A program made the translations under genes and the position numbers. Of a DNA stretch of 64,000 bases, positions 41,871 to 61,491 are shown piece by piece (the first letter of the stretch is position 1; every line of letters starts with the position of its first letter). The notes under the pieces are model-generated. The model worked only from the letters and a program-made list of their open reading frames with translations. It had not been told where the DNA came from and ran no database searches. Origin of the DNA: Lachnospiraceae bacterium (GTDB lineage: Bacteria > Bacillota > Clostridia > Lachnospirales > Lachnospiraceae); the NCBI GenBank assembly GCA_024689465.1, contig JAILDL010000063.1, positions 1-64,000 of the forward strand. Direction: 5' to 3'.

Positions 41871-42740
41871 TCAGCGCCGCAAGGCCCGATAGGCAGAGGG
41901 CGACACCCGGTGCATCTTTTTAAAAGCCTTCAGAAAGTTGGCAGCGGTAGGATAACCGCAGCGCTCTGCAATGTCTCCGACGGGGTAGTTGGTGGTGATC
42001 AGCAGAGAACGGGCATGTTCCATACGTACCGAGGACAGGTAGGAACCAATGGTCTGACCGGTCACCTTCTTAAAATACCGGCAAAGGTATTCCCTGGACA
42101 GTCCAAATTCCGCAGATAACCGCTTAAGAGAGATGGGATCGTGGTAATGGGTGTTCAGATAGGTGAGGATGTCATCCACATCGGAATTGCCGGTCAGCGG
42201 ATTAAAAGTTCCCGCTTTGCCGTATTCGTATTCCCGCATGAGCGATAAGAGCAGGATCTGCAGGGCATATTCCATAAGCTCCCCGGACAGAGAGGTATAG
42301 TGATTGTACTCATGGGTAATGGTCCAGAACTGATTCCGGTAATAGGTGGGATCCTTTGGACGAAACAGATGATAAAAAGGCTTATTCGGTTGGGATAGCC
42401 CGGAATATACGCTTAAAAGCCCCTTGTCAGCAAGGGGCTTTATTTTTTGCAGAACCTTGTGCATATAATCCTGTCGGATCAGAAGATTTCCGATAAACAG
42501 GAGCCTGTCCTCATAGGACACAAAGTCATGGACCGCTCCCGGGGAAAGGAGCACAATGGTCCCTGCGGATACACGGATCTTTTCTCCCCGGCAGATGTGC
42601 AGACCTTCCCCTTCGTAGACGTAGGCCAACTCGTAAAAATCATGGCGATGCAGGTCGCAGGTGGTGGATTGCCAGCAAAAGAAGGCGTGCAGATCCATGT
42701 CCGGTTTTATAAAATCTTCGCTTTTCAGCAGATGGTCCAT
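41871..42740 (-). CDS. AraC-family regulator with cupin domain
   Basis: A 289-residue one-component regulator. The cupin part (HRHDFYELAYVYEGEGLHI, VSAGTIVLLSPGAVHDF) occupies about 30-90; the AraC domain is at the end (ISLKRLSAEFGLSREYLCRYFK and GYPTAANFLKAFKKMHRVSPSAYR). The frame opens at a TTG (42752), but a GGAG seven bases ahead makes the ATG at 42740 a better start. It diverges from the second GH106-related gene and is its likely regulator. The target is inferred from position. Confidence 0.9.
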   Translation of the reverse strand: MDHLLKSEDFIKPDMDLHAFFCWQSTTCDLHRHDFYELAYVYEGEGLHICRGEKIRVSAGTIVLLSPGAVHDFVSYEDRLLFIGNLLIRQDYMHKVLQKIKPLADKGLLSVYSGLSQPNKPFYHLFRPKDPTYYRNQFWTITHEYNHYTSLSGELMEYALQILLLSLMREYEYGKAGTFNPLTGNSDVDDILTYLNTHYHDPISLKRLSAEFGLSREYLCRYFKKVTGQTIGSYLSSVRMEHARSLLITTNYPVGDIAERCGYPTAANFLKAFKKMHRVSPSAYRALRR

Positions 42741-42752
42741 TCCATACTCCAA

Positions 42753-42764
42753 GTCAATATATGC
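42753..42764. repeat. 12-bp direct repeat, copy 1
   Basis: GTCAATATATGC, repeated exactly at 42845-42856. This copy is next to the 5' end of the AraC gene, the other spans the start codon of the divergent hydrolase. AraC-type proteins often bind direct repeats, so these may be operator half-sites; a GGTCAATC at 42773 is a partial third copy. Confidence 0.4.
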
Positions 42765-42844
42765 GTGATATCGGTCAATCTAAGAATACCACATTTCCCT
42801 ATAGCTTGTTATCCTTATTCAGGAGAGAACGGATCCATTGGGAG

Positions 42845-42856
42845 GTCAATATATGC
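42845..42856. repeat. 12-bp direct repeat, copy 2
   Basis: Second exact copy of GTCAATATATGC, 92 bp from the first, overlapping the end of the GGAGGT and the ATG of the GH106-related gene. Binding here would hinder translation initiation or transcription. Confidence 0.4.
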
Positions 42857-45800: not shown

Positions 45801-45906
45801 CGGCTCGTCCCGAACGGACAGCTATCAGGTAAAGCCCATGGGAATCCTGGCGGCGCCGGTTATTTACCGTACCAGCCGATGCCCTCATCATTCCAGCCCT
45901 TACTAA
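42853..45906 (+). CDS. GH106-related putative glycoside hydrolase, long form
   Basis: A 1017-residue relative of the protein at 1670-3529. Shared motifs in order: PFWAWNCYMTKEKA, GFGGFHIHVRVG, CYLYDEDRYASGIAGG, FTDEPNIGG (Glu233), TGHLL and SEEYG. After the barrel come several beta-rich domains; a jelly-roll-like part near 750-870 (LLAMEERAYCTVFLNG) looks like a GH2-type sugar-binding fold. There is no signal peptide. GGAGGT at 42841-42846 favours the ATG at 42853 over the TTG at 42838. The final 15 codons run antisense to the end of the DUF5648 gene and may be an extension. Substrate unknown; alpha-L-rhamnosidase or another deoxy-sugar or uronic-acid hydrolase is possible. Confidence 0.65.
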   Translation: MLYDFEKDNWNEELFADPPASLRGTPFWAWNCYMTKEKAREQILLMKEMGFGGFHIHVRVGFENRYMGREYLELVEDCKEFAKENGMLCYLYDEDRYASGIAGGEVTKDVRFRSRHLLFTRTYRKEYDVSHGAFLAAQKRGEKGRGCLLATYRIAVKNGHMHWLKEGQRDENAILWYAYEEVASERPWCNDQTYVDAMNPEAIRRFLETTHEKYYEKLGDDFGSVIPSIFTDEPNIGGIRLDGETGNFAYPFTDGLPETYRETYGEDLLEVLPYLIWDHPDDPAFSHRIRRNYFDLCRKLFYKAYHQQIGDWCRAHHIAFTGHLLAEDGLFSQTSSAGEAMYQYKAYDIPGVDNLCDLREYTTLKQAQSIARQLGREGVMSEEYGVTQWDFSFQDYKLSGDWQAALGVTLRVPHLTWASMNGEAKRDYPASIGWQSPWYRQFKALEDYFARIGYCMSLGKPRVRVAILHPLEEAWNVIGAGDENTALRKRLEEAFHKRTEWLVKSGVDFDFISQSLWEEMPEWQKDGYLQVGEMTYELLLVPRPLQLRETIRQRLEELKKNGRTQVAEAEHFDESLLDVLSPYRDVQICDETGRPSWDYLYQLRSLGESELLFLAPAEKAEKTRGPFTWGRKGLLERRSVVVTIRGHYLAEELDPFTGERKEASYEQVGDTTKVFLQASWADSFLLLLSGTERKGARAGRAEGAACTAVGENGLPLEEPLAYRNTEPNVLLLDRMSYCLDGGQESAVTELLQADNQIRAALGYPLRMEEVVQPYIRTDVSRDHRLVLKAVIDSETEVANCLLAMEERAYCTVFLNGTPVDRMPVGYYVDPCLETLHLPPIRKGRNLLEIHMQYGLKSNLEWMYLLGEFGVQMGGSRTKLTGKPDRLTWGDYTRQGFPFYTGNMEYRVEIPEEGRLQIGRFSGFGVTLRQEEKEKLVAILPYETETKKGAATITLLGNRYNGFGQLHMIGDDLNWVGPDSWRTTGSSRTDSYQVKPMGILAAPVIYRTSRCPHHSSPY

Positions 45907-46792
45907 GGAGCTGGGAGCGTTCTTCTTTGCTCATGGTGTAGTGGTGACTTCCCGCAGGCTTTGCCTTCGGATCGTAGAGACGGTATAAAGGCGTAGAACC
46001 GCCGGAATACCAGCCGATCCCCTGATCTTCCCAGCCCTGGGATACCAGCTGATCCCGCTCCTGGGTACTGGTGGTGTAGTGATGATAGTCCGCACTCCTG
46101 TGATACAGGCGATAGACCGGACGATCGGAGGAAGCAGGTGTATACCAGGCGATGCCTTCGTCGTTCCAGCCCTGCGCAGTAAAGGAATCCCGCTCGGAGG
46201 TGCTGATGGTATAGAGATGCTCGCCGGTGGTTGGCCGAAACAGCCGGTAGACCGGGACTGTATCTCCGGTGATGGTACTCCCACCGGAAGGGGTGGGAGT
46301 AGGATCGGTCTGTTCCTGCTCCTTCAGCTTTTCTTCAAAATACGGATCGGCATTAAAATCCCCCTGGAGGACAAAGTGGCCGCTTGCAGCCTGGGAGAAA
46401 TTGGGACGGTAATCCGAAGGGACGCCCTGGCAGATCCTGCGGAAGTTATTTCCCGGGATCTTTTTTTCCACACCCTGGACGGTATAATACAGATCGATGC
46501 CGCTGAAGGTGGAGCTTTGTTCAAAGATGATGACACCGGCGCCGGTGATGGAGCCTCCGGGCTCCACGGTCAGAGCGCCGCTTATTTCCAGACCCTGGGG
46601 ATCCGGCGTAAAGGTCTTAAAGGTAACGGTGACACCGCTCTTTATGGTTACGTTGTTATAACGGTTGATGAACCTGGATAATGTGGTGTTGGAAGAAAAG
46701 ACCACGTCTCCCGCAGCCTGAACCGGAAGAGCCGGGATCAGAGTAAGCAGAAGGATGAAGGAAATCAGTACGGTTAAACACTTTCTTTTCAT
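45860..46792 (-). CDS. Secreted protein with three DUF5648 repeats
   Basis: A 310-residue exported protein. The signal peptide ends near LPVQA. Residues about 28-160 are a beta-rich region with GALTVEPGGSITGAGVIIF, then a Pro/Thr/Ser linker. Three repeats of about 42 residues follow, each like VYRLFRPTTGEHLYTIS plus GWNDEGIAWY. This repeat (DUF5648) is found on secreted clostridial and mycobacterial proteins and has been linked to surface binding without firm function. No anchor is visible, so it is probably released or wall-associated non-covalently. Its last codons overlap the GH106-related gene on the other strand. Confidence 0.8.
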   Translation of the reverse strand: MKRKCLTVLISFILLLTLIPALPVQAAGDVVFSSNTTLSRFINRYNNVTIKSGVTVTFKTFTPDPQGLEISGALTVEPGGSITGAGVIIFEQSSTFSGIDLYYTVQGVEKKIPGNNFRRICQGVPSDYRPNFSQAASGHFVLQGDFNADPYFEEKLKEQEQTDPTPTPSGGSTITGDTVPVYRLFRPTTGEHLYTISTSERDSFTAQGWNDEGIAWYTPASSDRPVYRLYHRSADYHHYTTSTQERDQLVSQGWEDQGIGWYSGGSTPLYRLYDPKAKPAGSHHYTMSKEERSQLLSKGWNDEGIGWYGK

Positions 46793-46945: not shown

Positions 46946-46974
46946 TTCACTTGTGCCGTGACAATACGGCAAAT

Positions 46975-47045
46975 AGGGGCATAGTTCAAAGGTAGAACGG
47001 AGGTCTCCAAAACCTTTGATGTGGGTTCGATTCCTACTGCCCCTG
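46975..47045 (+). tRNA. trnW: tRNA-Trp (CCA anticodon)
   Basis: A full cloverleaf can be drawn: acceptor stem AGGGGCA/TGCCCCT, D-arm GTTC/GAAC, anticodon stem GAGGT/ACCTT with loop CTCCAAA (anticodon CCA) and T-arm GTGGG/CCTAC with TTCGATT. The discriminator base is G, as expected for tryptophan. The 3' CCA is not encoded. It stands alone, with its own promoter and terminator. Confidence 0.97.
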
Positions 47046-47052
47046 TACAGAA

Positions 47053-47087
47053 GACCGCTCAGCCCTTTCGGCCGGGCGGTTTTTTCA
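47053..47087 (+). terminator. Terminator after tRNA-Trp
   Basis: ACCGCTCAGCC pairs with GGCCGGGCGGT (one mismatch) around a TTTC loop and is followed by TTTTTTC. Confidence 0.88.
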
Positions 47088-47138: not shown

Positions 47139-47147
47139 TGCTATAAT
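47139..47147 (+). promoter_or_regulatory. Extended -10 promoter of the diguanylate cyclase operon
   Basis: TGCTATAAT contains TATAAT (47142-47147) with the TG of an extended -10, which can work without a -35. It lies 32 nt before the first GGDEF gene start. Confidence 0.6.
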
Positions 47148-47178
47148 GAACTAGTTGGTTTCACTGAGGACAAGTGCC

Positions 47179-48882
47179 GTGGAAAGTGCTAAGATCAAGG
47201 CAGCTTTTAACCTGTCCATGCAGGTTTCGCTGGCCATCACATTCGGTTTCATATTGACCTATTTATACCTGAGTATCAGCTTTACCCGGTTACCGGACGG
47301 TATTTTGGATGTTTCCGGGAGCTGGCTGACCCGGACGGAGGGGGAGACCTTTGTCCGGCCCAATACGAGGGATCGGTTTCTGCGCAAAGGAGAGGAAGTG
47401 GAGATTCGTTTCTTTGCGCCGACTTTGTATGGGTCCATGAACGAATCCCTGTGTTTCGTTTCTCAGGGCACGGCCTTCGTGATGTATGACTGGCTGGGAC
47501 GGGAGGTTTATTCCTATGGAATGGACCTTTTGGAGGAGCACAGGATGATCCCCCGCAAGGTTCACTTCATCCGTATTCCCGAACGCGCCAAGCAGCACAG
47601 CCTCTGTCTGCAATTTGTTGCGGCCCAGAACGGTGCAAGGGTACGCTTCCGCTCTGCCTATTACGGCGATGTGGAGAAACTGGAAACCATCTATTTTAAA
47701 CGCAAATCTTTTGCGCTGCTGTGCGGTCTGTTCCTGATGGGCTTCGGATTTTTGCTGATCATGCTCCGCTTTTTCTTCAAGGGCTGGTTCTCCAAGCTGT
47801 ACGGGACCTTTTTTCAGGGTATGCTTCTGTTCGATATCGGCCTGTATACCCTTTGCTACAATGATCTGTTCAGCCTCTTTGTACGCAACGAACGGATCTC
47901 CACCTTTGTGGAATATCTTTCTTGCATGTTCTTACCGATCCTGATCCATCAATGCATTATGCGTAACCAGGACCGGCGTCGAAAAAGGCTGCCTTACTTT
48001 ATCTGCCAATTGATGCTGGGAATGGTGGGGATCGTCATTTTACTGCATTTCTTAAAAGTGGTTCACATTAATGAATTAGGGCCTGTGATCCAGGCGGTGC
48101 TGCTTATCTGGGCATTTTATGCCCTTGGATGGCTTACGCTGACCATTCGCAGGGATCTGGAACGTATGGGAGCGGAGCTTTATGCCAATATTTCCAGACG
48201 TTGCATTTATTTTGGCCTGTATTCCATGATCCTCCTGTCTTTGTGCGACTTTTTCCTTTCTGCCACCGGACAGAGCTACGGGATCTTCATCAATCAGGAT
48301 ACCCGCGGACTGTTCATCATGCTGGGAGGCTGCATTCTCATCGGCGATATGCTGCTGAGTTATTTCTTTCATACGGTGGGCAGCATGCAGGAGGAAGAGG
48401 TACGGGAGCGTCTGGAAGGACTGGCCTATACGGATGAACTGACCGGCTTGTCCAACCGTGCCCATTGCGACCGGTTTATGGCCGAAAACAGTGTGAAACA
48501 CTTAAAATGTGTGATCGTAAGCTTTGACCTGGATGGTCTTAAGAAGATCAATGATATTGAGGGACATCAGGCAGGAGATGCCTATCTGACGGGATTTGCC
48601 GCACTTCTGACAGAGAACTTCGGAAGAGAAACGCTTCTGGGGCGTATGGGTGGAGATGAGTTTATCATGATCACCACGGATCTGGATGTATTAAAGCTGG
48701 ATAACCGGTTGTACAAGATGTTTCTGATGGCTAAGGATGATCAGATACGGTTTTCCTACGGATATGCGGTATCCGATGAGGTTCCCGGAGGAAACCTGCA
48801 GACTGTCTATATGCTGGCGGATCAGCGGATGTATCGGATGAAGGATCAGCACTATGAAGAATCCGGGGAGGAGAAGAGTTGA
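47179..48882 (+). CDS. Membrane diguanylate cyclase (GGDEF), 7TM type
   Basis: A 567-residue protein expected to make cyclic di-GMP. One N-terminal membrane helix (about 12-33), an external beta-rich domain (about 35-165), then seven membrane helices (about 175-385) as in 7TM receptors with diverse modules, and a GGDEF domain (about 400-560) with FDLDGLKKINDIEGHQAGD and an intact GGDEF at 491-495. The usual RxxD inhibitory site before GGDEF is absent (RETL). The start is uncertain: the frame opens at a TTG (47155), but GAGGA 8 nt before a GTG (47179) suits better. Its stop overlaps the next gene by 4 nt. Confidence 0.88.
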   Translation: MESAKIKAAFNLSMQVSLAITFGFILTYLYLSISFTRLPDGILDVSGSWLTRTEGETFVRPNTRDRFLRKGEEVEIRFFAPTLYGSMNESLCFVSQGTAFVMYDWLGREVYSYGMDLLEEHRMIPRKVHFIRIPERAKQHSLCLQFVAAQNGARVRFRSAYYGDVEKLETIYFKRKSFALLCGLFLMGFGFLLIMLRFFFKGWFSKLYGTFFQGMLLFDIGLYTLCYNDLFSLFVRNERISTFVEYLSCMFLPILIHQCIMRNQDRRRKRLPYFICQLMLGMVGIVILLHFLKVVHINELGPVIQAVLLIWAFYALGWLTLTIRRDLERMGAELYANISRRCIYFGLYSMILLSLCDFFLSATGQSYGIFINQDTRGLFIMLGGCILIGDMLLSYFFHTVGSMQEEEVRERLEGLAYTDELTGLSNRAHCDRFMAENSVKHLKCVIVSFDLDGLKKINDIEGHQAGDAYLTGFAALLTENFGRETLLGRMGGDEFIMITTDLDVLKLDNRLYKMFLMAKDDQIRFSYGYAVSDEVPGGNLQTVYMLADQRMYRMKDQHYEESGEEKS

Positions 48883-50627
48883 AAGAGAACCGTCGAAACA
48901 GTAATTCTTCCCGCTCCATCAGCATCATGATCCTGACCATTACCATTCTGGCCAATATTCTGGTGACCTTTCTGGCAACCTTTTATGAGCATGATTATGA
49001 CGAGCACATTCATTGGAATCTGTATGTGAACGATGTCCCTGTGGGAAGCGGGGCCGGGAATAACCCCTATGTGAATGTGGGAGAGCCCCTGAACGAGGGG
49101 GATGTTCTGCGTATGGAAACGGTCCTGCCCGATCTGGGCGAGATCTCTTTTCCTGCGTTTCAAATGCGGGCACAGTACTGTGCGGTGCAGGTTTTGGTGG
49201 ATGATCTGATCTACAAGGAGTACGATATGGACAAGTATCGGAAGGGAAGTTACATCGGAGCCAACAACTATCTGGTTTCTCTTCCCGAAGACTACGCCGG
49301 CAGGCGCATACAGCTGCGCGTGCATTGCCAGGCGGATAATGTGAGCGTCCCGCTGTACAATCTGATCTTCGACAGTGAACCGAATCTGCGCTATATCTTC
49401 CTGCACATGGTGTTTCTGCCCATATCCTCCGGTGCGGTCCTGCTGCTGTTAGGCGGGATATTGCTGATCATTTCCCTGTCCTTCAGTATCAATAACCGGA
49501 TGTTTTTGTCCCATTCCCTTTCGGCACTGATGACCACCGGGATGGGAGCCATGCTGCATTCCCACTTCGGCATTACGGCGATCTACTGGGATGGCATGAA
49601 TGTATCGCTCCTCTATTATGTGTCTTCCATGCTGGTCCTTTTGGTGGCCGGGATCTGGTCCGGACGGATCCTGGATAAGCTCTACCGTTTTTTGCACCGG
49701 TGTATTATTTGGACCTATGGGATCTATGTGCTTTTGCGCATCCTGCTCCATGCGGCCGGCCTTCTCTGGATCCATGAATATTTCGGGCTGGAACTGGTAG
49801 CAGGGTTGTTTTTGCTGTTGCCGATCTTTCTGGACAGAAGGAAAGCGGCGAGGGAGGGGACCGAATGGTTTGATGATTCCTGGAAGCTGCAGATCTTCGG
49901 TATGAAGGCCTCCTTCCTCTTTGATATAGTGGCCTACAGCTGTACCATGCTGGGCTCCATGTTCTTTAAGGACTTTCACAATCTGCTGATCATGGTGGAG
50001 ATCATAGCCCTTACAGGCGGTATGATGATCTTTCCGGTTTGCCAGCTGGTGAATTTCCTGCGGTTTTCGACGGAGTCCTTCCGGCGAAACGAAGAATTCG
50101 ATGATCTGACCCGTGTCGCCTTTGAAGATGTACTGACCCGCCTGCCCAACCGGGCAAGCCTGAACCGTCAGGTGATGAGCTATGAAAATGCAAAGATGGA
50201 CTATACCATCGTCAGTATCGATGTAAACGGCTTAAAGCATACCAATGATACCTACGGACATGCGGAAGGCGATAAGCTGTTAAAGGGTTTTGCCCAGGCA
50301 TTAAAAAACGTGATCGGTCGCAACGGCTTTTGCTGCCGGACCGGAGGGGACGAATTCCTGATCCTGATCCCGGAATCACTGGCCCAGGCAGAAAACGATC
50401 TTCTGCGGCTTAGCGGGATGCTGGAAGAGATGAACGAGCGGGAAAAACATCCCTGGAAATATGAGGCGGCGTACGGCTGTGCTCTCCGGGGAGAGGCAGA
50501 TAGCTTCCATGAAGCGTATCTGCTGGCCGATCAACGTATGTACGAGAAGAAACGGAAACAGAAGGCGAAGCACTCTGCCGGGGAAAAAAACGGCAGAAGC
50601 CGCAAACCGTCACATGAAAGAGGATAA
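48879..50627 (+). CDS. Second membrane diguanylate cyclase (GGDEF)
   Basis: A 582-residue protein built like its neighbour: one N-terminal helix (ISIMILTITILANILVTFLA), an outside domain (about 40-165), a seven-helix region (about 175-400) and a GGDEF domain with SIDVNGLKHTNDTYGHAEGD and GGDEF at 489-493. The RxxD inhibitory site is also missing (RNGF). It starts with TTG overlapping the previous stop (TTGA), with GGGGAGG seven bases upstream, so translation is coupled. The two sensor halves differ, so they may sense different signals. The esterase gene follows after 5 nt. Confidence 0.9.
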   Translation: MKENRRNSNSSRSISIMILTITILANILVTFLATFYEHDYDEHIHWNLYVNDVPVGSGAGNNPYVNVGEPLNEGDVLRMETVLPDLGEISFPAFQMRAQYCAVQVLVDDLIYKEYDMDKYRKGSYIGANNYLVSLPEDYAGRRIQLRVHCQADNVSVPLYNLIFDSEPNLRYIFLHMVFLPISSGAVLLLLGGILLIISLSFSINNRMFLSHSLSALMTTGMGAMLHSHFGITAIYWDGMNVSLLYYVSSMLVLLVAGIWSGRILDKLYRFLHRCIIWTYGIYVLLRILLHAAGLLWIHEYFGLELVAGLFLLLPIFLDRRKAAREGTEWFDDSWKLQIFGMKASFLFDIVAYSCTMLGSMFFKDFHNLLIMVEIIALTGGMMIFPVCQLVNFLRFSTESFRRNEEFDDLTRVAFEDVLTRLPNRASLNRQVMSYENAKMDYTIVSIDVNGLKHTNDTYGHAEGDKLLKGFAQALKNVIGRNGFCCRTGGDEFLILIPESLAQAENDLLRLSGMLEEMNEREKHPWKYEAAYGCALRGEADSFHEAYLLADQRMYEKKRKQKAKHSAGEKNGRSRKPSHERG

Positions 50628-50632
50628 GACAA

Positions 50633-52597
50633 ATGGGAGAAACGATCCGATTACCGAGACTGTTAGGAAACGGCAGCATATTACAGCATGGAAAACCCAT
50701 TCATATCTGGGGCTGGGTCGATCGCGCAGAAGGCGATGTGGCGGACCTGACTGTGGAGCTGATCGAAGAGGATGCGGCGCAGACCTTTCGCCGCAAGACC
50801 CTGGCCGATCAGCGGTTTGATGTCTATTTTTCGCCCCTGGAACCGGGAAGAAAGCTGACCCTCCGGGTTTCGGATGAAAAAGGCGAAGTGGCAGAGCGTC
50901 ATGACCTGCGCACCGGAGAGGTGATCCTGTGCAGCGGGCAGTCCAACATGGAGCTTCCCATGGAACGGGTAAAATACCGGTATCCTGAGGAGATCGCATC
51001 GGCACAGGATGAAGACCTGCGCTGCTTTAAGGTAACGGAGCATACCAATTTCCACCATCCGGAGGAGGAACACCTCAGCGGCGAATGGAAGAGCGTGTGC
51101 GCGGAGACCATCCGGAGCTTTTCCGCAACCGCCTACTTTTTCGGGAAGGAACTGCGTTCTCTTGCCAAGGTGCCGGTGGGCCTGATCGACTGTTCCCTGG
51201 GCGGAAGCCTGATCAGCTCCTGGATGAGCCGGGAGATGCTGGAGGATTATCCGGAACTGCTGGAACTGGCGGACCGGTATGCAGACGATGCTTTCCTGGA
51301 ACAGAGGAAAAAGCAGAATGACGAAAACGCAGCGGCCTGGTATGGTGCGGCAGATGCTGCAAACATCGGGATCAAAGAGCACTGGGAGAACCCTGCAAAC
51401 TTTTCTCCGGAGCGCTGCACCGAGACTCTGGAGATTCCCTGCTTCCTGGAAGATACGCCTCTGAAGGGCTTTATCGGAAGCTTCTGGATCACAAAGACCT
51501 TTACGGTTCCGGAACATCTGGCCGGCAAACCCATGCGGCTGTGGCTCGGAACCATTGTAGATAACGATATTTTCTATGTAAACGGTGTAAAAGTGGGAGA
51601 AACTCCCTATCAGTATCCGCCCCGGAAATATGAGATCCCCGCGGGTGTGTTAAAGGCAGGAGAAAATACCATTACCGGACGGATCCGGGTGGAAAACGGA
51701 GAGGGACGCTTTACGCCCAACAAAAAGTATGCCCTGTTTTCCATGGATACGGATACTTCCGCCATCGATGCGGATCAGAGCATCCCGGGAGAGGATGAGA
51801 TCGATCTGTCCGGAACCTGGCATTACAAGGTAGCCTGTACCTGTGAGCAGATCCCGCCCACAGACTTCGTCAACTGGAAGCCTACCGGCCTGTTTAACGG
51901 CATGACGGCACCCTGCCATAATTTCCCCATCGGGGGCATCATCTGGTACCAGGGAGAATCCAACTGTGCAGAGCCCCAAAACTATACCCTTCTCACCAGA
52001 GCCATGGTGGAAGGCTACCGCAGACTGTGGCAGGATCCGGAGATCCCCTTCTGGTATGTTCAGCTGCCGAACTTTGTGGTGGATTGCAAGGAAGAGATCC
52101 AGTGGCCTGCCCTCCGGGAAGCCCAGAGACGCTGCGACAGCATTCCCCTTACCGGCATGGTGGTTGCCATTGACTTAGGCGAAGACTACGACCTGCATCC
52201 CACCGGCAAGAAACGCATCGGGAAACGTCTGGCCCACCTGCATGCGGCATTTGCCTATCATTTTAACGAAAATCCGGAAAGTCCCTTTGTGGCGGAGGTA
52301 TTCTCCACCCGGGACGGCCTGCTCCTTCATACCAATCCGGTGCGAAGCCTACATGCGGACCATGGCAGCGTGAAGCTCCATCCCGCAGAGGGCCTGGAGA
52401 TCCTGGACTTTTCCGCGGAGGATTCCATGGGAAATGTGATCCCCCTTCAGGCCAGTCTGGAGGGCAGGGATATCCTGCTTTCGGATGTACCGGAGGATGT
52501 GACGGCCATCCGCTACTGCTATTCCAATACCAACAAAGGTGCCCTGATCTACGGGGACAACGGACTGCCCTTAAGCCCTTTCAGAATGGAGATCTGA
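50633..52597 (+). CDS. SASA/CE20-like carbohydrate acetylesterase
   Basis: A 654-residue SGNH-fold esterase of the sialate-O-acetylesterase-like group. The nucleophile block is CSGQSNMEL with Ser104, the oxyanion block is WYQGESNC, and the Asp-His pair is YDLHPTGK. Between the two halves (about 270-380) lies an inserted beta-sandwich (SFWITKTFTVPEHL, VDNDIFYVNGVKVG), an arrangement seen in acetylxylan esterases of family CE20; that assignment is tentative. No signal peptide is present, so it would deacetylate imported oligosaccharides. It sits between the diguanylate cyclases and GH2 with gaps of 5 and 1 nt. Confidence 0.85.
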   Translation: MGETIRLPRLLGNGSILQHGKPIHIWGWVDRAEGDVADLTVELIEEDAAQTFRRKTLADQRFDVYFSPLEPGRKLTLRVSDEKGEVAERHDLRTGEVILCSGQSNMELPMERVKYRYPEEIASAQDEDLRCFKVTEHTNFHHPEEEHLSGEWKSVCAETIRSFSATAYFFGKELRSLAKVPVGLIDCSLGGSLISSWMSREMLEDYPELLELADRYADDAFLEQRKKQNDENAAAWYGAADAANIGIKEHWENPANFSPERCTETLEIPCFLEDTPLKGFIGSFWITKTFTVPEHLAGKPMRLWLGTIVDNDIFYVNGVKVGETPYQYPPRKYEIPAGVLKAGENTITGRIRVENGEGRFTPNKKYALFSMDTDTSAIDADQSIPGEDEIDLSGTWHYKVACTCEQIPPTDFVNWKPTGLFNGMTAPCHNFPIGGIIWYQGESNCAEPQNYTLLTRAMVEGYRRLWQDPEIPFWYVQLPNFVVDCKEEIQWPALREAQRRCDSIPLTGMVVAIDLGEDYDLHPTGKKRIGKRLAHLHAAFAYHFNENPESPFVAEVFSTRDGLLLHTNPVRSLHADHGSVKLHPAEGLEILDFSAEDSMGNVIPLQASLEGRDILLSDVPEDVTAIRYCYSNTNKGALIYGDNGLPLSPFRMEI

Positions 52598-52598
52598 C

Positions 52599-55500
52599 AT
52601 GCGACTATTGTTTAACGGAGAATGGAAATTTCTGGAGACCAAAACCGGAACGGTCTATCAGGAGGCGATGGAGCGTCTGGACGACTTTGTGCCTGTTCAG
52701 GTGCCTCACGACTGGCTGATCTTTGATGCAAAGGATCTGTACCGGGACGGCTGCGGCTGGTACTTTAAGAAGGCAGCTCTTCCCGCCGAATATACCCCGC
52801 AAAAGGGAAAGAAGCTGTTTTTATGCTTTGACGGCGTCTATATGGACTGCGCTCTGTATGTAAACGATCAGAAGGCAGGAGAGTGGAAATACGGGTATTC
52901 TCCCTTTACCATGGATATCACGGCTTATGTAAAGGAAGGGGACAACCGCTTTGTCCTTTCCGTAACCCATCAAAATCCCAACAGCCGCTGGTATTCCGGT
53001 GCCGGTATTTTCCGGAACGTGCAGCTGTTTATCGCGGAAGAGACCTATATTCCCCAAAACGGCATTTATGTACATTCCCACAGGGAAAATGACCATTATT
53101 TCCTGCAGGTGGAAACGGAGATCGCCACCACCCGTCAGGATGTATCCCCTTATGCTGCGATCCCGGAGATCGGCAACTATCAGTTGGAGTATGTACTGCT
53201 GGATGAAACCGGCCAGCAGGTGGATCTGACCAAATTATCGGAAAACTATCGGGAAGTAGCGGATGAGATCCTGGATGTCACCGGAAACGGCGACATCCGT
53301 ACCGTGAAGGTAACTTCCTACCGGCTGGAAAAGGTAAATGAATGGGATGCGGATAACCCCTATCTCTACCGGCTGGTCACACGTCTTCTGGAAAACGGAA
53401 GAGTGATCCAGGAAGAAAGCTGCCGTATCGGTTTTAAGGACATAGAGATGATCCCGGACAAGGGGCTGTATATAAACGGAAAGCACTGCAAATTTCAGGG
53501 CGTTTGCGAACACCACGATCTGGGAGCTTTGGGAGCGGCCTTTCATAAGGAGGCCATGGCCCGGAAGATCCGGATCTTAAAGTCCATGGGAGTCAACGCC
53601 ATCCGTCTGACCCACAACATGGCAGCAGAAGGTGTTCTGGAGCTGGCGGATGAAATGGGGATCTATCTGATCTCCGAAGGCTTTGATATGTGGGAGAGGC
53701 CCAAGACCACCTATGATTACGCCCGGTTCTTCCCCAAGTGGCATGAGAAGGATGTGGCAAGCTGGATCCGCAGAGACCGCAATCATGCCAGCGTGGTCTT
53801 ATGGAGCATCGGAAATGAGATCTACGATACGCATGCGGATGCGAGAGGCCGGGAAGTAACCGCCGATCTGCAAAAGCAGGTATTGCTCCATGACCCGTTG
53901 CAAAATGCAAGAGTCACCATCGGCTCCAACTACATGCAATGGGAAGGAGCTCAGAACTGCGCGGATATCCTGAAACTGGCGGGATACAATTACGGCGAGC
54001 GTCTCTATCCGGAGCACCACGCGGCCCATCCGGACTGGGTGATCTACGGCAGTGAAACCAGCTCCATCGTGCAGAGCCGTGGGGTATACCATTTCCCCTT
54101 AGCTTCCAACATCCTGTCCGATGACGATGAACAGTGCTCTGCCCTGGGAAACAGCACCACCAGCTGGAGTGCCGTAAGCTATGAAGCCTGCGTCACCATC
54201 GACCGGGATACCCCCTACTCCCTGGGACAGTTTTTATGGAGCGGATTTGACTACATTGGGGAACCCACTCCCTACCATACCAAGAACTCTTATTTCGGCC
54301 AGATCGATACAGCCGGTTTCCCCAAGGATTCCTACTATGTGTGGAAAGCTGCCTGGACGGATGTAAACTCTGACCCTATGGTACACATCTTCCCTTACTG
54401 GGATTTTAACAGGGGTCAGCGCATCGACCTGCGGGTGGTGAGCAATGCACCCAATGTGGAATTGTTCCTGAACGGAAAGAGTCTGGGCAAACAAAAATTG
54501 ACCAATAAAGTCAATGGAGGAAGCCATATCATCGCCGATTACCAGGCCCTTTATGAGCCCGGTACGCTTCTTGCCATCGCAACGGATGAAAACGGAAAGG
54601 AAGTGGCCCGGGAAGAAAAGCATTCCTTCGGAGATGCAGTCGAACTGGAAGTAAAGCCTTCCAAGGGTAAGTTTGATCATCCCGGTGATCTGATCTTTCT
54701 GGAGATCTCCGCTTTGGATGGAGATTCCAATCCCGTGGAGAATGCCTCCAACCGGGTTCATGTCTTTGTGGACGGCCCGGCACGCCTGGTGGGTCTGGAT
54801 AACGGGGACAGTACAGACTTAGACAGCTATAAGGGAACCAGTAAGCGCCTGTTTCACGGAAAGCTGCTGGCCATTTTGGAAGCCGGTAATGACAGCGGGA
54901 TCGTGGTGGTGACCGTGACCAGCCGCAACATGGAGCCCAAGGTCTTTAACTTCCTCTCCGCCGTGGAGGAAAACGCTCCCCGGATCGTGTACGACCGTGC
55001 CATGGAGCAGACGGAATACATCGATGAATGCAGAGACTATGAGATCGTAAACGGCAAGGCCTATGAGATCCCGGTACGAAAACTGGAGATCACGGCTGCG
55101 GACGGGCAGCAGTTTACAGCAGAACAGAAGGTTCTTCATGCTACGGTGAAGGTCCTTCCGGAAGGAGCAGACGATCAGGAGGTAACCTTTACCGCCGTCA
55201 ATGACAAAGGCGTGGAGACCAGTCTGGTAAGCCTGGAAACAAAGGGACATGAAGTGACCATGACGGCTCTGGGAGACGGAGATTTCTTCCTGCGAGCTAC
55301 CTCTAAGAGCGGCACGGAAAAGGTTCGCGTGATCTCGCAGCTGGAGTATTCTGTAACCGGTGTGGGACAGGCATCCTTTGACCCCTATCATTTTGTATCC
55401 GGCGCCCTTTATACCGGCGGTACCGGTTCCATTACCAGCGGAAATGAGAAGGGTATCGCCACCGGCAGGATGGAGCGGACCGTGGTCTGCTTTGACGGTC

Positions 55501-56135
55501 TGGACTTTGGCCCCGCAGGTTCCGATGAAGTGACCATTCCCATTTTCAACATGGGAGAGAGCAAGGAAGTGAACCTGTATCTGGGGAATCCCGATGAAGG
55601 CGGCATATTGCTTGCTAAGACCACCTATGAGAAGGAAATGATCTGGGGCGTTTACCAGGATCATATCGTACATTTTGACAGACGGATCTGCGGGAAGCAG
55701 ACGCTGGCCATTGAAGTGTTCGGAAAGATGCACATTAAGGGATTTGTCTTTAAGAAAGAGGAAAAGGCTTTCCTAAGCCTTCCCGCTACAAGTGCCGATG
55801 CCATCTACGGAGATACCTTTATCCGAAAGGAAGAGGGGATCTACGGCATCGGAAACAATGTGGCCATGGATTTTGAAGAGATGGACTTTGGAGAAGAAGG
55901 CACCACATCCGTGACCATCAAAGGACGGGCGCGCGGCGGCAAAAATACCGTGCATCTGCGGTTTTTGGATGCGGAAAGCGGAAAGGAGATCCGCCAGATC
56001 GCTGAGTTTGAACCTTCCGAGGAGGTGGAGGAGAAGACCTTCACCCTGGAAAAAGTAACCGGAAAGCAGAAAGTGACGTTTATCTTCCTGCCCGGTTGTG
56101 ATTTTGACTTTGTTTCCTTCCGGTTTGAGACGTAA
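52599..56135 (+). CDS. Large GH2 glycoside hydrolase with CBM-like C-terminal modules
   Basis: A 1178-residue GH2 enzyme (beta-galactosidase-like). N-terminal sugar-binding jelly-roll (about 1-150), Ig-like domain (150-290), barrel (290-590) with Glu407 in WSIGNEIYDTHAD as acid/base and Glu486 in IYGSETSS as likely nucleophile, then DUF4982-like and Ig-like domains. Two beta-sandwich modules at about 930-1055 and 1060-1178 resemble family 6 carbohydrate-binding modules (GLDFGPAGSDEVTIPIF and EEMDFGEEGTTSVTIKGRAR). There is no signal peptide. It begins 1 nt after the esterase stop. Beta-galactosidase, beta-glucuronidase or arabinopyranosidase are all possible; the context suggests a capping sugar on xylan side chains. 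Confidence 0.88.
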   Translation: MRLLFNGEWKFLETKTGTVYQEAMERLDDFVPVQVPHDWLIFDAKDLYRDGCGWYFKKAALPAEYTPQKGKKLFLCFDGVYMDCALYVNDQKAGEWKYGYSPFTMDITAYVKEGDNRFVLSVTHQNPNSRWYSGAGIFRNVQLFIAEETYIPQNGIYVHSHRENDHYFLQVETEIATTRQDVSPYAAIPEIGNYQLEYVLLDETGQQVDLTKLSENYREVADEILDVTGNGDIRTVKVTSYRLEKVNEWDADNPYLYRLVTRLLENGRVIQEESCRIGFKDIEMIPDKGLYINGKHCKFQGVCEHHDLGALGAAFHKEAMARKIRILKSMGVNAIRLTHNMAAEGVLELADEMGIYLISEGFDMWERPKTTYDYARFFPKWHEKDVASWIRRDRNHASVVLWSIGNEIYDTHADARGREVTADLQKQVLLHDPLQNARVTIGSNYMQWEGAQNCADILKLAGYNYGERLYPEHHAAHPDWVIYGSETSSIVQSRGVYHFPLASNILSDDDEQCSALGNSTTSWSAVSYEACVTIDRDTPYSLGQFLWSGFDYIGEPTPYHTKNSYFGQIDTAGFPKDSYYVWKAAWTDVNSDPMVHIFPYWDFNRGQRIDLRVVSNAPNVELFLNGKSLGKQKLTNKVNGGSHIIADYQALYEPGTLLAIATDENGKEVAREEKHSFGDAVELEVKPSKGKFDHPGDLIFLEISALDGDSNPVENASNRVHVFVDGPARLVGLDNGDSTDLDSYKGTSKRLFHGKLLAILEAGNDSGIVVVTVTSRNMEPKVFNFLSAVEENAPRIVYDRAMEQTEYIDECRDYEIVNGKAYEIPVRKLEITAADGQQFTAEQKVLHATVKVLPEGADDQEVTFTAVNDKGVETSLVSLETKGHEVTMTALGDGDFFLRATSKSGTEKVRVISQLEYSVTGVGQASFDPYHFVSGALYTGGTGSITSGNEKGIATGRMERTVVCFDGLDFGPAGSDEVTIPIFNMGESKEVNLYLGNPDEGGILLAKTTYEKEMIWGVYQDHIVHFDRRICGKQTLAIEVFGKMHIKGFVFKKEEKAFLSLPATSADAIYGDTFIRKEEGIYGIGNNVAMDFEEMDFGEEGTTSVTIKGRARGGKNTVHLRFLDAESGKEIRQIAEFEPSEEVEEKTFTLEKVTGKQKVTFIFLPGCDFDFVSFRFET

Positions 56136-56140
56136 AAAGC

Positions 56141-57010
56141 CTACAACCGGTGGTTCTTGTTCATCTTCTTGTATTCGGTGGGCGTGCAGTTTCTGGCCTG
56201 TTTAAAGATCCGGTTAAAGGTGGACAGAGAATTAAAGCCTGCCTGCATGGCCACATCCGTAACGGACAGATCCGGATTGATGAGAAGACGCTCCGCTAAG
56301 TCGATACGGCACTGGGTCAGATATTCGTAGCAGCTAAGACCCGTAAACTGTTTAAACAGACGGGAAAAATGGAACCGGGAAAAACCGGCCAGGCTGGCCA
56401 GTTCATCCATGGAGACATCTTCCGCACAGTGTTTGGTCATGTATTCGCAAATGGTCATGAACCGCTGGATGTATTCGTGCCGCTTGGCATTGGTGGCATC
56501 CGGGAATTTGTTTTCGGTATTTAAGTGGGCCCGTCCGATGGCAACCAGAAACCGGATGAGGTCCGAGTAGATGCTGGCAGCACAGAAGCTGTCATGCTGT
56601 ACGTATTCATTAAACAAATGCTCCACCAGAGAGCTTAAATATTCCGCCAGTTCGGGATTTTCCTCCTTGCGTACCAGCGCAGGAGCATTCACGGCTGCGA
56701 ACAGGGAGTCGACTCCGGGGATATTGCCGATCAGGGAATAATCCGCCAGCAGGATGTAGCGGCTCCCTTCTTTTGGCGCTTTTAACTGATGCAGGGTTCC
56801 CGGTGGGATGAAAAGAATGTCCCCGGGGAAGAAATGGATCACCTGATTGTCAATGATTGCGGTATAATCGTTTTCAATGGGAAGAATGATCTCCAGGGCA
56901 GTATGCCAGTGCAGAGGGTAATCTTCCACCTCCCGGTTGCGATACAGGCGGATCCCTTTGATCAGATCATAGCGTATGGTTTCTCTCGTGCCTTCCAGTT
57001 CGGGAATCAT
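56141..57010 (-). CDS. AraC-family regulator with cupin domain
   Basis: A 289-residue regulator with N-terminal cupin (DYPLHWHTALEIILPIEN, FFPGDILFIPPGTLHQL) and C-terminal AraC domain (MDELASLAGFSRFHFSRLFKQ, GFNSLSTFNRIFKQARNCTPTEYK). AAGGAG seven bases before the ATG at 57010 fixes the start. It is convergent with GH2 (5-nt gap) and divergent from GH3, so it most likely controls GH3-GH67. Confidence 0.92.
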   Translation of the reverse strand: MIPELEGTRETIRYDLIKGIRLYRNREVEDYPLHWHTALEIILPIENDYTAIIDNQVIHFFPGDILFIPPGTLHQLKAPKEGSRYILLADYSLIGNIPGVDSLFAAVNAPALVRKEENPELAEYLSSLVEHLFNEYVQHDSFCAASIYSDLIRFLVAIGRAHLNTENKFPDATNAKRHEYIQRFMTICEYMTKHCAEDVSMDELASLAGFSRFHFSRLFKQFTGLSCYEYLTQCRIDLAERLLINPDLSVTDVAMQAGFNSLSTFNRIFKQARNCTPTEYKKMNKNHRL

Positions 57011-57134
57011 AGATAAACTCCTTAAAGATCAGTTGTCTGTGCTGACGATTCTGCTGTTTACCCCTCTTTACCATAATAGCAAAAAATGAACAAAAATACG
57101 CAAGGAATAAAATGTTTCTCCGGGAATTGTTCCA

Positions 57135-57202: not shown

Positions 57203-59335
57203 ATGGAATTTTCGGAAAACACCGCACTATTAACGGAGTACCGCCGGAGAGCTGCTGAGCTGGTAGGTAAGATGACGCTGGATGAAAAGGTTTCCCAGCT
57301 GGTCAATCATTCACCTGCCATCGAGCGGCTGGGGATCCCGGCATATGACTGGTGGAATGAAGCCCTTCACGGCATCGGACGTGCCGGCGTGGCAACGGTT
57401 TTCCCCCAGGCCATCGGTCTGGCTGCGACCTTTGATGAAGATCTGATGGAGAAGATCGCAGACACCATTTCCACGGAAGGACGTGCAAAGTACAATATGC
57501 AGTCTCGATTTGAAGATCGGGACATCTATAAGGGGCTGACCTTCTGGTCTCCCAATATCAACATCTTCCGTGATCCCCGTTGGGGAAGAGGACAGGAGAC
57601 CCTGGGAGAAGATCCCTATCTGACCTCCCGTCTGGGCGTACGGTTTGTTATGGGCCTGCAGGGGCATGATGCCCGCTATATGAAGCTGGCTGCCTGCGCA
57701 AAGCATTTTGCGGTGCATTCCGGACCGGAAGGTATCCGTCACAGCTTTGATGCCAAGGCAGATCCCCAGGATATGCGGGAGACCTATCTGCCTGCCTTTA
57801 AGGCACTGGTACAGGAAGCAAAGGTGGAGGCGGTCATGGGCGCCTATAACCGTACCAACGGGGAGCCTTGCTGCGGTTCCAAGACTTTGCTGAAGGATAT
57901 CCTGCGAGACGAATGGGGCTTTGAAGGCCATGTGGTTTCCGACTGCTGGGCCATCAAGGATTTCCATACCGGCCACATGGTAACCGCCAATGAGATCGAA
58001 TCCATTTCCCTGGCCATGAACAACGGCTGCGACATTAACTGCGGCGACCTGTTTGTTCTGATGAAGAAGGCGATTGAAGAAGGCAGAGTGTCCGAAGAGC
58101 GTCTGGACGAAGCACTGACCAACCTGTACACCACCCGTATGAAGCTGGGTGTATTTGACGGGAAGGGTGAGAACCCTTACGATGCACTGGACTACACCGT
58201 GGTCGACACCGTAGAGAATCAGCATTTTAACCGGGAAGTTGCTGAGAAGTGCATGGTCCTGTTAAAGAATAACGGACTCCTTCCGCTGGATAAGAGCAAG
58301 ATCCGTTCCATCGGTATCGTGGGACCCAACACCAACAGCCGAAAGGCCCTGGTTGGTAACTACGAAGGAACGGCTTCCCGCTATTTCACCATTTCCGAAG
58401 GCATTCAGGAATATGTGGGCGAAGACATCCGGGTATTTACCTCCGAAGGCTGCCACATGTTCAAGCAAGGCATCAGCGGCTTAAGCCAGGGACATGACCG
58501 GCTCTCTGAAGTAAAGGGCGTATGCGAAGTCAGTGACGTGGTAGTGGTATGCCTTGGTCTGGATGCGGATCTGGAGGGAGAAGAAGGCGATGCCGGCAAC
58601 GAGTTCGGCAGCGGCGACAAGCCCAATTTAAAGCTGCCCGGCGAGCAGGAAGAAGTACTGAAGATTGCAGTGGCAAGCGGAAAGCCTGTGATCCTGGCTC
58701 TGTTATCCGGTAGCGCACTGGCAGTGCCTTATGCAGACGAGCATGCGGACGCCATCATGCAGTGCTGGTATCCCGGTGCCCAGGGGGGACGTGCTTTTGC
58801 AAGACTCCTTTTTGGCGATGTCAATCCGGAAGGCAAGCTTCCCATCACCTTCTACCGTACCAGTGAGGAACTGCCGGAATTTACCGATTACTCCATGAAG
58901 GGCAGAACCTATCGTTATATGCAAAATGAAGCCCTGTATCCTTTCGGATACGGCTTATCCTATACGGATTACCGGATCACGGATGTGAAGGCTTCTTCCG
59001 ATACACTTGGGGAAGAAGGCATCAAGGTTTGTGCAAAGGTAAAGAATAACGGCAAGATGGACGGTGTGGACACCATCCAGGTTTATGTAAAGATCGATGA
59101 AGAAGGTACTCCCAACCCGCAGCTGAAGGGCATTGCAAAGGTAGCCCTGAAAGCAGGGGAAGAGAAGGAGGTTTTGGTATCTCTTAAGAAGGAAGCCTTC
59201 GGACTCTTTGACGAACAGGGCAAGTTCCAGTATGCTACTGGTAAGGCCATCGTTTATGTTGGCGACCAGCAGCCGGATACACGCTCCGAAAAGCTTACCG
59301 GCAAGAAGGTAGCAGCCCTGACGATCAATCTGTAA
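57203..59335 (+). CDS. GH3 beta-xylosidase / beta-glucosidase
   Basis: A 710-residue GH3 enzyme. The N-terminal barrel reads QLVNHSPAIERLGIPAYDWW and NIFRDPRWGRGQETLGEDP; Asp247 in HVVSDCWAIKDFH is the nucleophile. The second domain has VGNYEGTASRYFTISEGI, resembling GH3 beta-xylosidases, and the C-terminal fibronectin-type domain ends the chain. No signal peptide. AAAGGGG precedes the ATG. Its pairing with GH67 and an AraC regulator supports xylo-oligosaccharide hydrolysis; beta-glucosidase activity cannot be excluded. Confidence 0.93.
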   Translation: MEFSENTALLTEYRRRAAELVGKMTLDEKVSQLVNHSPAIERLGIPAYDWWNEALHGIGRAGVATVFPQAIGLAATFDEDLMEKIADTISTEGRAKYNMQSRFEDRDIYKGLTFWSPNINIFRDPRWGRGQETLGEDPYLTSRLGVRFVMGLQGHDARYMKLAACAKHFAVHSGPEGIRHSFDAKADPQDMRETYLPAFKALVQEAKVEAVMGAYNRTNGEPCCGSKTLLKDILRDEWGFEGHVVSDCWAIKDFHTGHMVTANEIESISLAMNNGCDINCGDLFVLMKKAIEEGRVSEERLDEALTNLYTTRMKLGVFDGKGENPYDALDYTVVDTVENQHFNREVAEKCMVLLKNNGLLPLDKSKIRSIGIVGPNTNSRKALVGNYEGTASRYFTISEGIQEYVGEDIRVFTSEGCHMFKQGISGLSQGHDRLSEVKGVCEVSDVVVVCLGLDADLEGEEGDAGNEFGSGDKPNLKLPGEQEEVLKIAVASGKPVILALLSGSALAVPYADEHADAIMQCWYPGAQGGRAFARLLFGDVNPEGKLPITFYRTSEELPEFTDYSMKGRTYRYMQNEALYPFGYGLSYTDYRITDVKASSDTLGEEGIKVCAKVKNNGKMDGVDTIQVYVKIDEEGTPNPQLKGIAKVALKAGEEKEVLVSLKKEAFGLFDEQGKFQYATGKAIVYVGDQQPDTRSEKLTGKKVAALTINL

Positions 59336-59401: not shown

Positions 59402-59463
59402 GCCTGGACAGGGAATTGCCGGTAAGGAAAGGTTTTGCCGGTCCGGATGGATACGGAGGATAC

Positions 59464-61491
59464 ATGGATAAGGATTATACAAAGCTTTGGCTGGATTACA
59501 GCAAACGAAAGGATATGGGAAACGGCGCACTGTTTAAGACCATCAGTGTCTTTGATTTCAGCAATCCCGAAGGTTTCCCTGTTATACAAAATGCGCTGGA
59601 GGAGTTGACCAAGGGGGCAGCCGGTATGCTGGGCGTGATCCCGCTGGTGCTTTCCGGGGATCGTTCCGCGGAGAGTGCAGGGGTACAGTTTCCCAAGGGA
59701 ACCTTAAGCATCCGTCGGATGGAGGATCTGGGGCCGGAAACCTATCACGTGATCGAGCATGAAGGAAAACTCCATCTCCATGCGGGAGACGAAAACGGCG
59801 TGTTGTACGGCGCCTTTGAGATCCTGCGCCGGATCGCCATGGAGCAGCCTCTTACGGGAATGGATGTCACGAAGACACCGGATTGCCCTTTTCGTATGTT
59901 AAACCATTGGGATAACCTGGATGGTAGCATCGAGCGTGGCTATTCCGGTAAATCCTTCTTTTTTGAGAACGATGAGATCCTGGTAAACGACCGCACGGAG
60001 CAGTATGCCCGCCTGATCGCTTCCGTGGGGATCAATGCAGTGGTGATCAACAATGTAAATGTGAAAAATGCCGCGTCGCTTCTCATCACCGACACTTATT
60101 TTGCCAAAGTGGCAGAGCTTTCCGGTGTTTTTTCCCGGTACGGGATCAAGCTGTATCTGAGTCTGAACTTTGCTTCCCCTATGGAGATCGGCGGACTGAA
60201 TACCGTAGATCCCTTAGAACCCCAGGTGATCTTCTGGTGGGAGAGCAAGATGGCGGAGATCTTCGCAAAGATCCCCAATCTGGGCGGCTTTCTCGTAAAG
60301 GCAGATTCCGAAGGAAGACCCGGACCCTTTACCTATGACAGGACCCAGGCAGACGGGGCCAATATGCTGGCGGATATTGTGAAAAAATACGGTGCCCGCA
60401 TCATCTGGAGAGCCTTTGTGTATAACTGTCAGCAGGACTGGAGGGATACGAAGACAGACCGTGCCTGTGCAGGGTATAACAGCTTTAAGCCGGTGGACGG
60501 AACCTTCCGGGATAATGTGATCCTGCAGGTAAAGAACGGCCCTATGGACTTCCAGATCCGGGAAGGGGTTTCCTCCCTGTTAGGAGGCATGGAAAAAACC
60601 AACGAGATGCTGGAGGTACAGATTGCCCAGGAATATACCGGGCAGCAGATCGACCTTTGCTATCTCATGCCCATGTTCCGGGAAATCCTGGATTTTAAGA
60701 CCTATTGCGGAAAAGAAAAGGACACCGTGGCGGACATCATTTCCGGACGGTGCTTTGGAAATAAAAATACGGGCATCGCAGCCGTAACCAATACAGGCAA
60801 TGACCGGAACTGGACGGGGAATGATCTGGCAGCAGCAAACCTTTACGGGTTCGGACGCCTGGCCTGTGATCTTTCCTTAAGCCCGGAGCAGATCGCCCGG
60901 GAGTGGATCGCCTTAACCTATGGAAACGATCCGGTGGTCATGGAGACGATCCTGAAGATGCTGCTGGAATCCAGAGAGATCTACGAATCCTATACATCCC
61001 CGCTGGGAGTTGGCTGGATGGTGACCCCGTCCGTACATTACGGTCCCTTCGTGGACGGCTACGAATATTCCAGATGGGGATGCTATCACAGAGCGGACCA
61101 TGCGGGCATCGGCATTGATCGGACGAAGGAGGGAAGCGACTATGTTTCCCAGTATCACGAGCCCAACACCTCGTTATACAATGATATCCGTACCTGCCCG
61201 GAGGAGCTGCTGTTGTTCTTCCATCATGTGCCCTATACCTACCGCTTAAAGAGCGGGAAGACCCTGATCCAGCACATCTATGACAGCCATTTTGAAGGCT
61301 ATGAGCGGGCGCTGGGCTTGCAGGAGAGCTGGAAGAGCTTAAAGGACCGCCTTCCTTTGGAAGTTTACCACCGGGTAGAAGAGCGCCTGATCCGTCAGGT
61401 GGCCAATGCCAGAGAGTGGCGGGATCAGGTAAATACCTATTTCTACCGCAAGAGCGGCATTCCCGACGAGAAGGGACGGGAGATCTACTAA
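59464..61491 (+). CDS. aguA: GH67 alpha-glucuronidase
   Basis: A 675-residue GH67 enzyme, which cuts (4-O-methyl)glucuronic acid from the non-reducing terminal xylose of short xylo-oligosaccharides. YTKLWLDY at the start, MLNHWDNLDGSIERGYSGKS, LVKADSEGRPGP (acid Glu), SFKPVDGTFRDNVILQVKNG (catalytic Asp) and PMDFQIRE (catalytic Glu) are diagnostic. The length agrees with intracellular bacterial AguA when the ATG at 59464 is used; a TTG at 59416 would add 16 residues. GGAGG is 4 nt before the ATG, rather close. It is cytosolic and works with the GH115 upstream in this window. Confidence 0.96.
   Translation: MDKDYTKLWLDYSKRKDMGNGALFKTISVFDFSNPEGFPVIQNALEELTKGAAGMLGVIPLVLSGDRSAESAGVQFPKGTLSIRRMEDLGPETYHVIEHEGKLHLHAGDENGVLYGAFEILRRIAMEQPLTGMDVTKTPDCPFRMLNHWDNLDGSIERGYSGKSFFFENDEILVNDRTEQYARLIASVGINAVVINNVNVKNAASLLITDTYFAKVAELSGVFSRYGIKLYLSLNFASPMEIGGLNTVDPLEPQVIFWWESKMAEIFAKIPNLGGFLVKADSEGRPGPFTYDRTQADGANMLADIVKKYGARIIWRAFVYNCQQDWRDTKTDRACAGYNSFKPVDGTFRDNVILQVKNGPMDFQIREGVSSLLGGMEKTNEMLEVQIAQEYTGQQIDLCYLMPMFREILDFKTYCGKEKDTVADIISGRCFGNKNTGIAAVTNTGNDRNWTGNDLAAANLYGFGRLACDLSLSPEQIAREWIALTYGNDPVVMETILKMLLESREIYESYTSPLGVGWMVTPSVHYGPFVDGYEYSRWGCYHRADHAGIGIDRTKEGSDYVSQYHEPNTSLYNDIRTCPEELLLFFHHVPYTYRLKSGKTLIQHIYDSHFEGYERALGLQESWKSLKDRLPLEVYHRVEERLIRQVANAREWRDQVNTYFYRKSGIPDEKGREIY

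Follow-up and report, generated by a model that had tools for sequence, protein, structure and literature searches.

A conserved pair of membrane diguanylate cyclases joined to the CE20–GH2 half of a glucuronoxylan block: a likely composite operon in a Lachnospiraceae genus

Introduction

Why do two predicted diguanylate cyclases (DGCs) stand directly ahead of an acetylesterase and a large glycosidase? The question is raised by four co-oriented genes in a 64,000-nt stretch of DNA from a Lachnospiraceae bacterium, analysed as a whole and hereafter called the window (contig C119 of a genome of 2.97 Mb, 82% complete). The initial annotation proposed that the four genes form one operon, in which extracellular glycan sensing by the outside domains of the cyclases sets c-di-GMP together with intracellular glycan breakdown. 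All statements on conservation within the genus are based on one other species, the congener G001.

Results

Layout and borders of the four-gene run

The features of the run and of the adjoining block are collected in Table 1. The open reading frames and Pfam matches agree with the GGDEF-GGDEF-SASA-GH2 layout first described, with spacings of −4, +5 and +1 nt; the −4 is a TTGA overlap, in which the TTG start codon of DGC2 overlaps the DGC1 stop. A Shine-Dalgarno-like stretch precedes each of the four starts. The extended −10 promoter placed ahead of the run also stands, since the congener carries its counterpart at the same place, although position 47139, initially given as the beginning of the run, belongs to this promoter. 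The DGC1 start is likely to be the GTG at 47179, which is preferred because the longer frame from the TTG at 47155 would begin only 7 nt past the TATAAT at 47142–47147. The promoter has no good −35 element, and a simple sigma-70 scan missed it.

Table 1. Positions in the window of the four-gene run, its left border and the adjoining glucuronoxylan block
Feature	Position	Strand	Evidence
tRNA-Trp(CCA), conserved left operon border	46974..47046	+	ARAGORN, Rfam; precedes DGC1 in congener too
Intrinsic terminator of tRNA-Trp	47049..47085	+	−21.3 kcal/mol, z −3.9, U-tract; terminator at same place in congener
Extended −10 promoter TGcTATAAT	47139..47147	+	Read in sequence; TGgTATAAT at same place in congener
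DGC1 (type 1), GGDEF	47179..48882	+	Pfam PF00990 E 2.9e-23; hydropathy; motif alignment
DGC2 (type 2), GGDEF	48879..50627	+	Pfam PF00990 E 6.5e-27; type-2 clade 100/99
CE20-type esterase (SASA)	50633..52597	+	PDB 9h4u over residues 4–652, E 1.3e-118
GH2, GalB/GalA-like	52599..56135	+	Pfam; PDB 7cwd E 1.3e-142; NCBIfam GalB 569 bits
AraC-family regulator of block	56141..57010	−	Pfam; ortholog in congener 88%
Putative AraC-type operator ahead of GH3	57077..57112	+	25.6 bits, held-out matrix; identical 36-mer in congener
GH3 of block	57203..59335	+	Pfam
GH67 alpha-glucuronidase of block	59416..61491	+	Pfam E 4.6e-150

In the congener the locus is spread over three contigs. One reads clpC-radA-DUF308-hypothetical-tRNA-Trp-terminator-promoter-DGC1 and then ends; a second carries DGC2-CE20-GH2; the third, which shares exactly 141 nt of GH2 with the second, carries GH2-AraC-GH3-GH67. 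The DGC1–DGC2 junction of the congener thus falls in the assembly gap. The gene order is kept despite identities of 49% for DGC1 and 78% for CE20. With the AraC protein at 88% and another DGC of this genome (contig C181, see below) at 73%, DGC1 is, by these sequence comparisons, evolving unusually fast between the two species, and its outside part (44% identity) more so than its GGDEF domain (61%). Between DUF308 and tRNA-Trp the window has AraC, GH106-like and DUF5648 genes (41871–46792), where the congener (L100) has one short hypothetical gene.

The junction between DGC2 and the esterase is the point at which the run might be divided. A simple sigma-70 and terminator scan gave no plus-strand promoter or terminator match from 50,000 to 50,633, so that the terminator or separate promoter that would have split the cyclases from the esterase was not seen. 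Hairpins lie near this junction in both species; that of the window lacks a U-tract (z −2.1), and partial termination or an undetected promoter at this point is possible. The spacing is not conserved: the gap is 56 nt in the congener against +5 nt in the window, because DGC2 of the window extends further at the C terminus. Because there is no internal promoter or terminator match, the promoter is conserved, the congener keeps the order and no operator was found ahead of CE20 (see below), DGC1 to GH2 are likely to be one transcription unit, as the initial annotation had it.

The enzymes belong to a recurring glucuronoxylan block

CE20 enzymes are SGNH/SASA esterases in which a domain is inserted in the catalytic domain and the triad is made of Ser and Asp-x-His (PMC11127375). 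The window esterase has a jelly-roll insert within its SGNH domain, its alignment with 9h4u includes this insert, and S104 and D520/H522 occupy the triad positions; judged by the full-length match and these positions, it is CE20-like. The GH2 protein has the GH2 domains and the two catalytic glutamate motifs (GNE 405–407 and GSE 484–486), and is nearest to GalB/GalA-type enzymes, its NCBIfam GalB score lying under the cut-off of 900 bits. Neither CE20 nor GH2 has a hydrophobic start, and both are predicted to be intracellular. A related intracellular CE20, XuaJ, is thought to deacetylate imported arabinoxylo-oligosaccharides (PMC11127375).

Xylan genes are found at both ends of the window: GH43, GH115, UxuA, a transporter and GH51 at the left, and CE20, GH2, AraC, GH3 and GH67 at the right. 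On the minus strand, a 666-aa open reading frame adjoining GH67 (61595–63595) has no Pfam or NCBIfam match. A polysaccharide-utilisation locus of Gram-positive bacteria unites glycan enzymes, a regulator and a transporter. Here the enzymes and the AraC gene are present and the ABC permeases are more than 30 kb away; permeases lie nearby in three related loci (L103, L104 and L106).

A CE20 relative at E 1e-60 was found in 26 of 397 family genomes, including the two genus members. We read 20 of the 24 neighbourhoods that lie outside the genus, together with six named neighbourhoods, and most of these contain GH2, GH3, GH67, AraC or transport genes. The exact order CE20-GH2-AraC-GH3-GH67 occurs without DGCs in L103, L106 and L107, and in L105 with a GH43 inserted. 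The DGC pair is in none of these neighbourhoods outside the genus, and a GGDEF gene of any kind is present in just two of them (L062 and L107), in each case a lone gene several kilobases away from CE20. Thus CE20-GH2-AraC-GH3-GH67 is a recurring glucuronoxylan block that occurs without DGCs.

A putative AraC-type operator is kept ahead of GH3 and not found ahead of CE20

The motif TAGCAATATnTG-N-GCAAGAaAT was learnt from eight GH3 promoters of relatives, with the window kept out of the training. Its only strong site in the window is the one at 57077, ahead of GH3, which at 25.6 bits exceeds the best score (16.2 bits) in 60 simulated 64-kb sequences and is matched by 36 identical bases in the congener. 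From its position, we infer that this putative operator is bound by the neighbouring AraC protein. A second candidate, a minus-strand site at 42,437, was discarded when its score fell from 13.9 to 4.6 bits with the held-out matrix.

With the matrix made from GH3 promoters only, an operator is also found ahead of CE20 in L103–L106, at 10.7–18.8 bits (empirical p 0.017–0.035 each). No such operator lies ahead of CE20 in the window (−13.7 bits) or the congener (−2.5 bits), the GH3 copy being the only one found. In L050, L052, L054 and L055, where CE20 lies within longer same-strand runs, it is likewise without an operator of its own. The absence of a CE20 operator fits an operon-internal position and, taken alone, does not tell when a loss took place. 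It is probable, as far as the motif comparison goes, that CE20-GH2 moved out of the AraC-controlled set and is now driven by the DGC promoter.

The cyclase pair is older and wider than its link to xylan

Both GGDEF domains score well above the Pfam cut-off (82.9 and 94.7 bits against 23.8), and the LKxxND, GHxxGD and GGDEF motifs are intact in both, so that all catalytic motifs are kept. Motif alignment found no RxxD I-site, the optional product-inhibition site, in either. By hydropathy, both proteins have an N-terminal helix and a multi-pass membrane part, with a probable beta-rich outside domain between them and the GGDEF domain at the C end, and they are predicted to be membrane enzymes that make c-di-GMP.

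The pair itself was followed with profiles of the two types. At all 11 complete loci where type 1 matched strongly (above 450 bits), a strong type-2 match follows directly on the same strand; the congener, cut by a contig end, is not among the 11. No solo type 1 or type 2 was seen among the strong matches. In the tree, the 12 type-1 rows fall into a single clade and the 11 type-2 rows into a second (100/99 for each), and the subgroups of the two clades match. The distance matrices of the two types are correlated (mirror-tree r 0.575, permutation p 5e-5, with shared species history left in). Since types 1 and 2 are separate clades, recent tandem duplication was rejected as the origin of this pair family. 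A heterodimer would be the simplest reason for such strict pairing.

Outside the window, the pair occurs at ten further loci in eight other genomes, two genomes having two copies, and its order is always type 1 then type 2. Its neighbours there are apparently non-glycan genes, as far as protein starts, and Pfam scans of some of them, can tell. The pairing of the cyclases predates the xylan association and reaches beyond it, and its origin does not lie in xylan sensing. The proposed role as a dedicated glycan sensor is not supported, as the pair stands beside unrelated genes at these ten loci and the CE20-GH2 block outside the genus lacks the pair. The four-gene order suggested as a sign of function is kept in the congener, the gap at its DGC1–DGC2 junction aside, whereas outside the genus the two halves are separate. 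Further tandem DGC pairs of the same build, mostly with 4-nt overlaps, are present in other lineages of the family (L185, L186, L187, L188, L189 and L190); those of G050 and G363 likewise divide into first and second groups.

The outside domains of types 1 and 2 are homologous to each other (hhalign 99.6–99.9%) and fit no Pfam sensor family. DGC1 and DGC2 (P0001 and P0002) gave no Pfam 7TMR-DISMED2 or 7TMR-DISM_7TM match at E up to 10, and for 7TMR-DISM one relative reaches 7.5 bits against a cut-off of 29. Profiles of the outside domains gave only chance-level matches to solved structures, the best being 33 residues of the GH2 structure 6hpd at E 0.02. With no Pfam sensor match and no convincing match to a solved carbohydrate-binding domain, glycan sensing by these domains is still a guess. 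An AlphaFold2 model of DGC2 from the single sequence shows strands followed by long helices; its pLDDT of 48 led us to set it aside for fold comparison.

Cyclase–glycosidase joins recur in this genome

The genome has 30 GGDEF and 13 EAL matches, one PilZ match and one c-di-GMP-I riboswitch match; given the last three, c-di-GMP can be degraded and read. The four-gene run is one of several places where a GGDEF gene is joined to genes for glycan enzymes. A single DGC of the same build lies between GH51 and GH1, with gaps of 73 and 5 nt (L077:6621-11369, contig C181 of G000), in an order kept in the congener (L198). Another DGC of this build follows a GH53 galactanase by 36 nt (L076:8899-12657, contig C39). 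On contig C38 (L095:9256-14547), a GH3 gene and a GGDEF/EAL gene share about 10 nt and are followed by a MarR gene. On contig C200 (L078:8428-12446), a GGDEF/EAL and a GGDEF gene with a 4-nt overlap lie downstream of an ABC transporter set.

Overall, among 22 genes lying close to GGDEF genes on the same strand, 5 encode GH or CE enzymes. In a test set up post hoc, with 4% taken as the share of GH/CE genes, this gives a binomial p of 0.0015; the 4% is an assumption for which Butyrivibrio totals (PMC6912079) served as a guide. The result speaks for a non-random association of DGCs with glycosidases in this genome. Outside the genus, the C181 DGC is most closely related to a protein of G237 (30%), and no glycosidase was recognised beside that gene; therefore the C181 join also looks genus-specific. 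The join in the window is shared by the two genus members and is one instance of a wider pattern. The coupling of cyclases to glycosidases that was first remarked on is real and recurrent in the genome, whereas the pair was not originally a xylan sensor.

Discussion

A composite operon and its alternatives

We give slightly better than even weight to a genus-level composite operon, in which an ancient DGC pair has been joined to the CE20-GH2 half of a glucuronoxylan block. The starting point would be a two-gene membrane DGC unit, inherited as a pair and probably forming a single receptor; its simplest form would be a heterodimer, in which two unlike outside domains sit above two GGDEF halves. 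This unit would have been joined end to end with CE20-GH2. Lacking the AraC-type operator of its relatives, CE20-GH2 is probably transcribed from the promoter ahead of the DGCs; the AraC operator remains in place for GH3-GH67. An outside signal would then set c-di-GMP, and with it lifestyle, and a cell making the receptor would also make enzymes that remove acetyl and galactose-like groups from imported xylo-oligosaccharides. Within this account, it is co-transcription, enzyme activity, the heterodimer, the signal or ligand and the benefit for xylan use that we infer.

It could instead be that the xylan block simply landed 3′ of the DGC pair at tRNA-Trp, that a promoter for CE20-GH2 lies undetected in the 3′ end of DGC2, and that the co-orientation is accidental and c-di-GMP irrelevant to xylan. 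Such neutral joining would suit the lack of linkage between pair and block outside the genus, the unconserved +5 spacing and the hairpins near the junction. We nevertheless consider it unlikely, since the junction has no promoter match, the order survived while DGC1 dropped to 49% identity, and the genome has two more DGC-GH joins, one of them conserved. The model first put forward, in which glycans derived from xylan are sensed by the outside domains and attachment is adjusted in step with intracellular breakdown, gains from NicD, the nearest architecture, for which carbohydrate binding through 7TMR-DISMED2 has been reported (PMC8544897), from the recurrence of DGC-GH joins, and from the faster divergence of the outside part of DGC1 than of its GGDEF domain. 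The same pair adjoins unrelated genes elsewhere, however, and its outside domains match neither a Pfam sensor nor a solved sugar-binding domain, which makes this model improbable in our view.

A further alternative opposes only the heterodimer step and is compatible with the operon reading: the two genes may be linked for dosage or regulation, each protein being an independent homodimer with its own signal. Indeed, with all catalytic motifs kept in both GGDEF halves, neither protein needs a partner for missing residues. The strict order, the lack of solo types among the strong matches and the matching tree halves argue the other way, and we see the independent homodimers as a real but lesser prospect. 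Taking the composite operon with a heterodimeric receptor one step further, the pair might be an obligate heterodimeric cyclase of the Lachnospiraceae, its different outside domains making it a two-signal detector that the genus wired to xylan by promoter capture; this we offer tentatively, at rather less than an even chance.

Significance and comparison with known systems

GGDEF genes number in the tens in these genomes, yet we came across little work on c-di-GMP in Lachnospiraceae of the rumen and gut. The cyclase pairing is the most novel part of the finding: a strictly ordered, conserved pair offers a tangible candidate for a cyclase that works as a heterodimer, and a search of the open-access literature for heterodimeric cyclases or DGCs in glycan operons gave nothing directly on point. 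The missing operator beside a likely captured promoter would, if true, clearly illustrate how fibre breakdown and lifestyle signalling can be rewired to one another.

In architecture, the window DGCs resemble NicD of Pseudomonas aeruginosa (7TMR-DISMED2/7TM/GGDEF; PMC8544897), with a probable beta-rich outside domain, a multi-pass membrane part and a C-terminal GGDEF domain; unlike NicD, they have no Pfam 7TMR-DISM match, form an ordered two-gene pair and lie inside a likely glycosidase operon. The E. coli dgcO-pdeO operon (PMC8846402) also brings two c-di-GMP enzymes together and is co-transcribed, but it combines a cyclase with a phosphodiesterase, whereas both members of the ordered, conserved pair in the window are cyclases. 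Heteromeric contacts show that the GGDEF domains of unlike proteins are able to pair (PMC5635695); these are two-hybrid contacts rather than a conserved ordered cyclase pair. On the enzyme side, the Xua cluster of Ruminiclostridium cellulolyticum, which includes XuaJ (PMC11127375), likewise combines a cytoplasmic CE20 with glycosidases for imported xylo-oligosaccharides. In contrast to that cluster, CE20-GH2 in the window stands behind two DGCs and lacks the AraC-type operator that belongs to its block.
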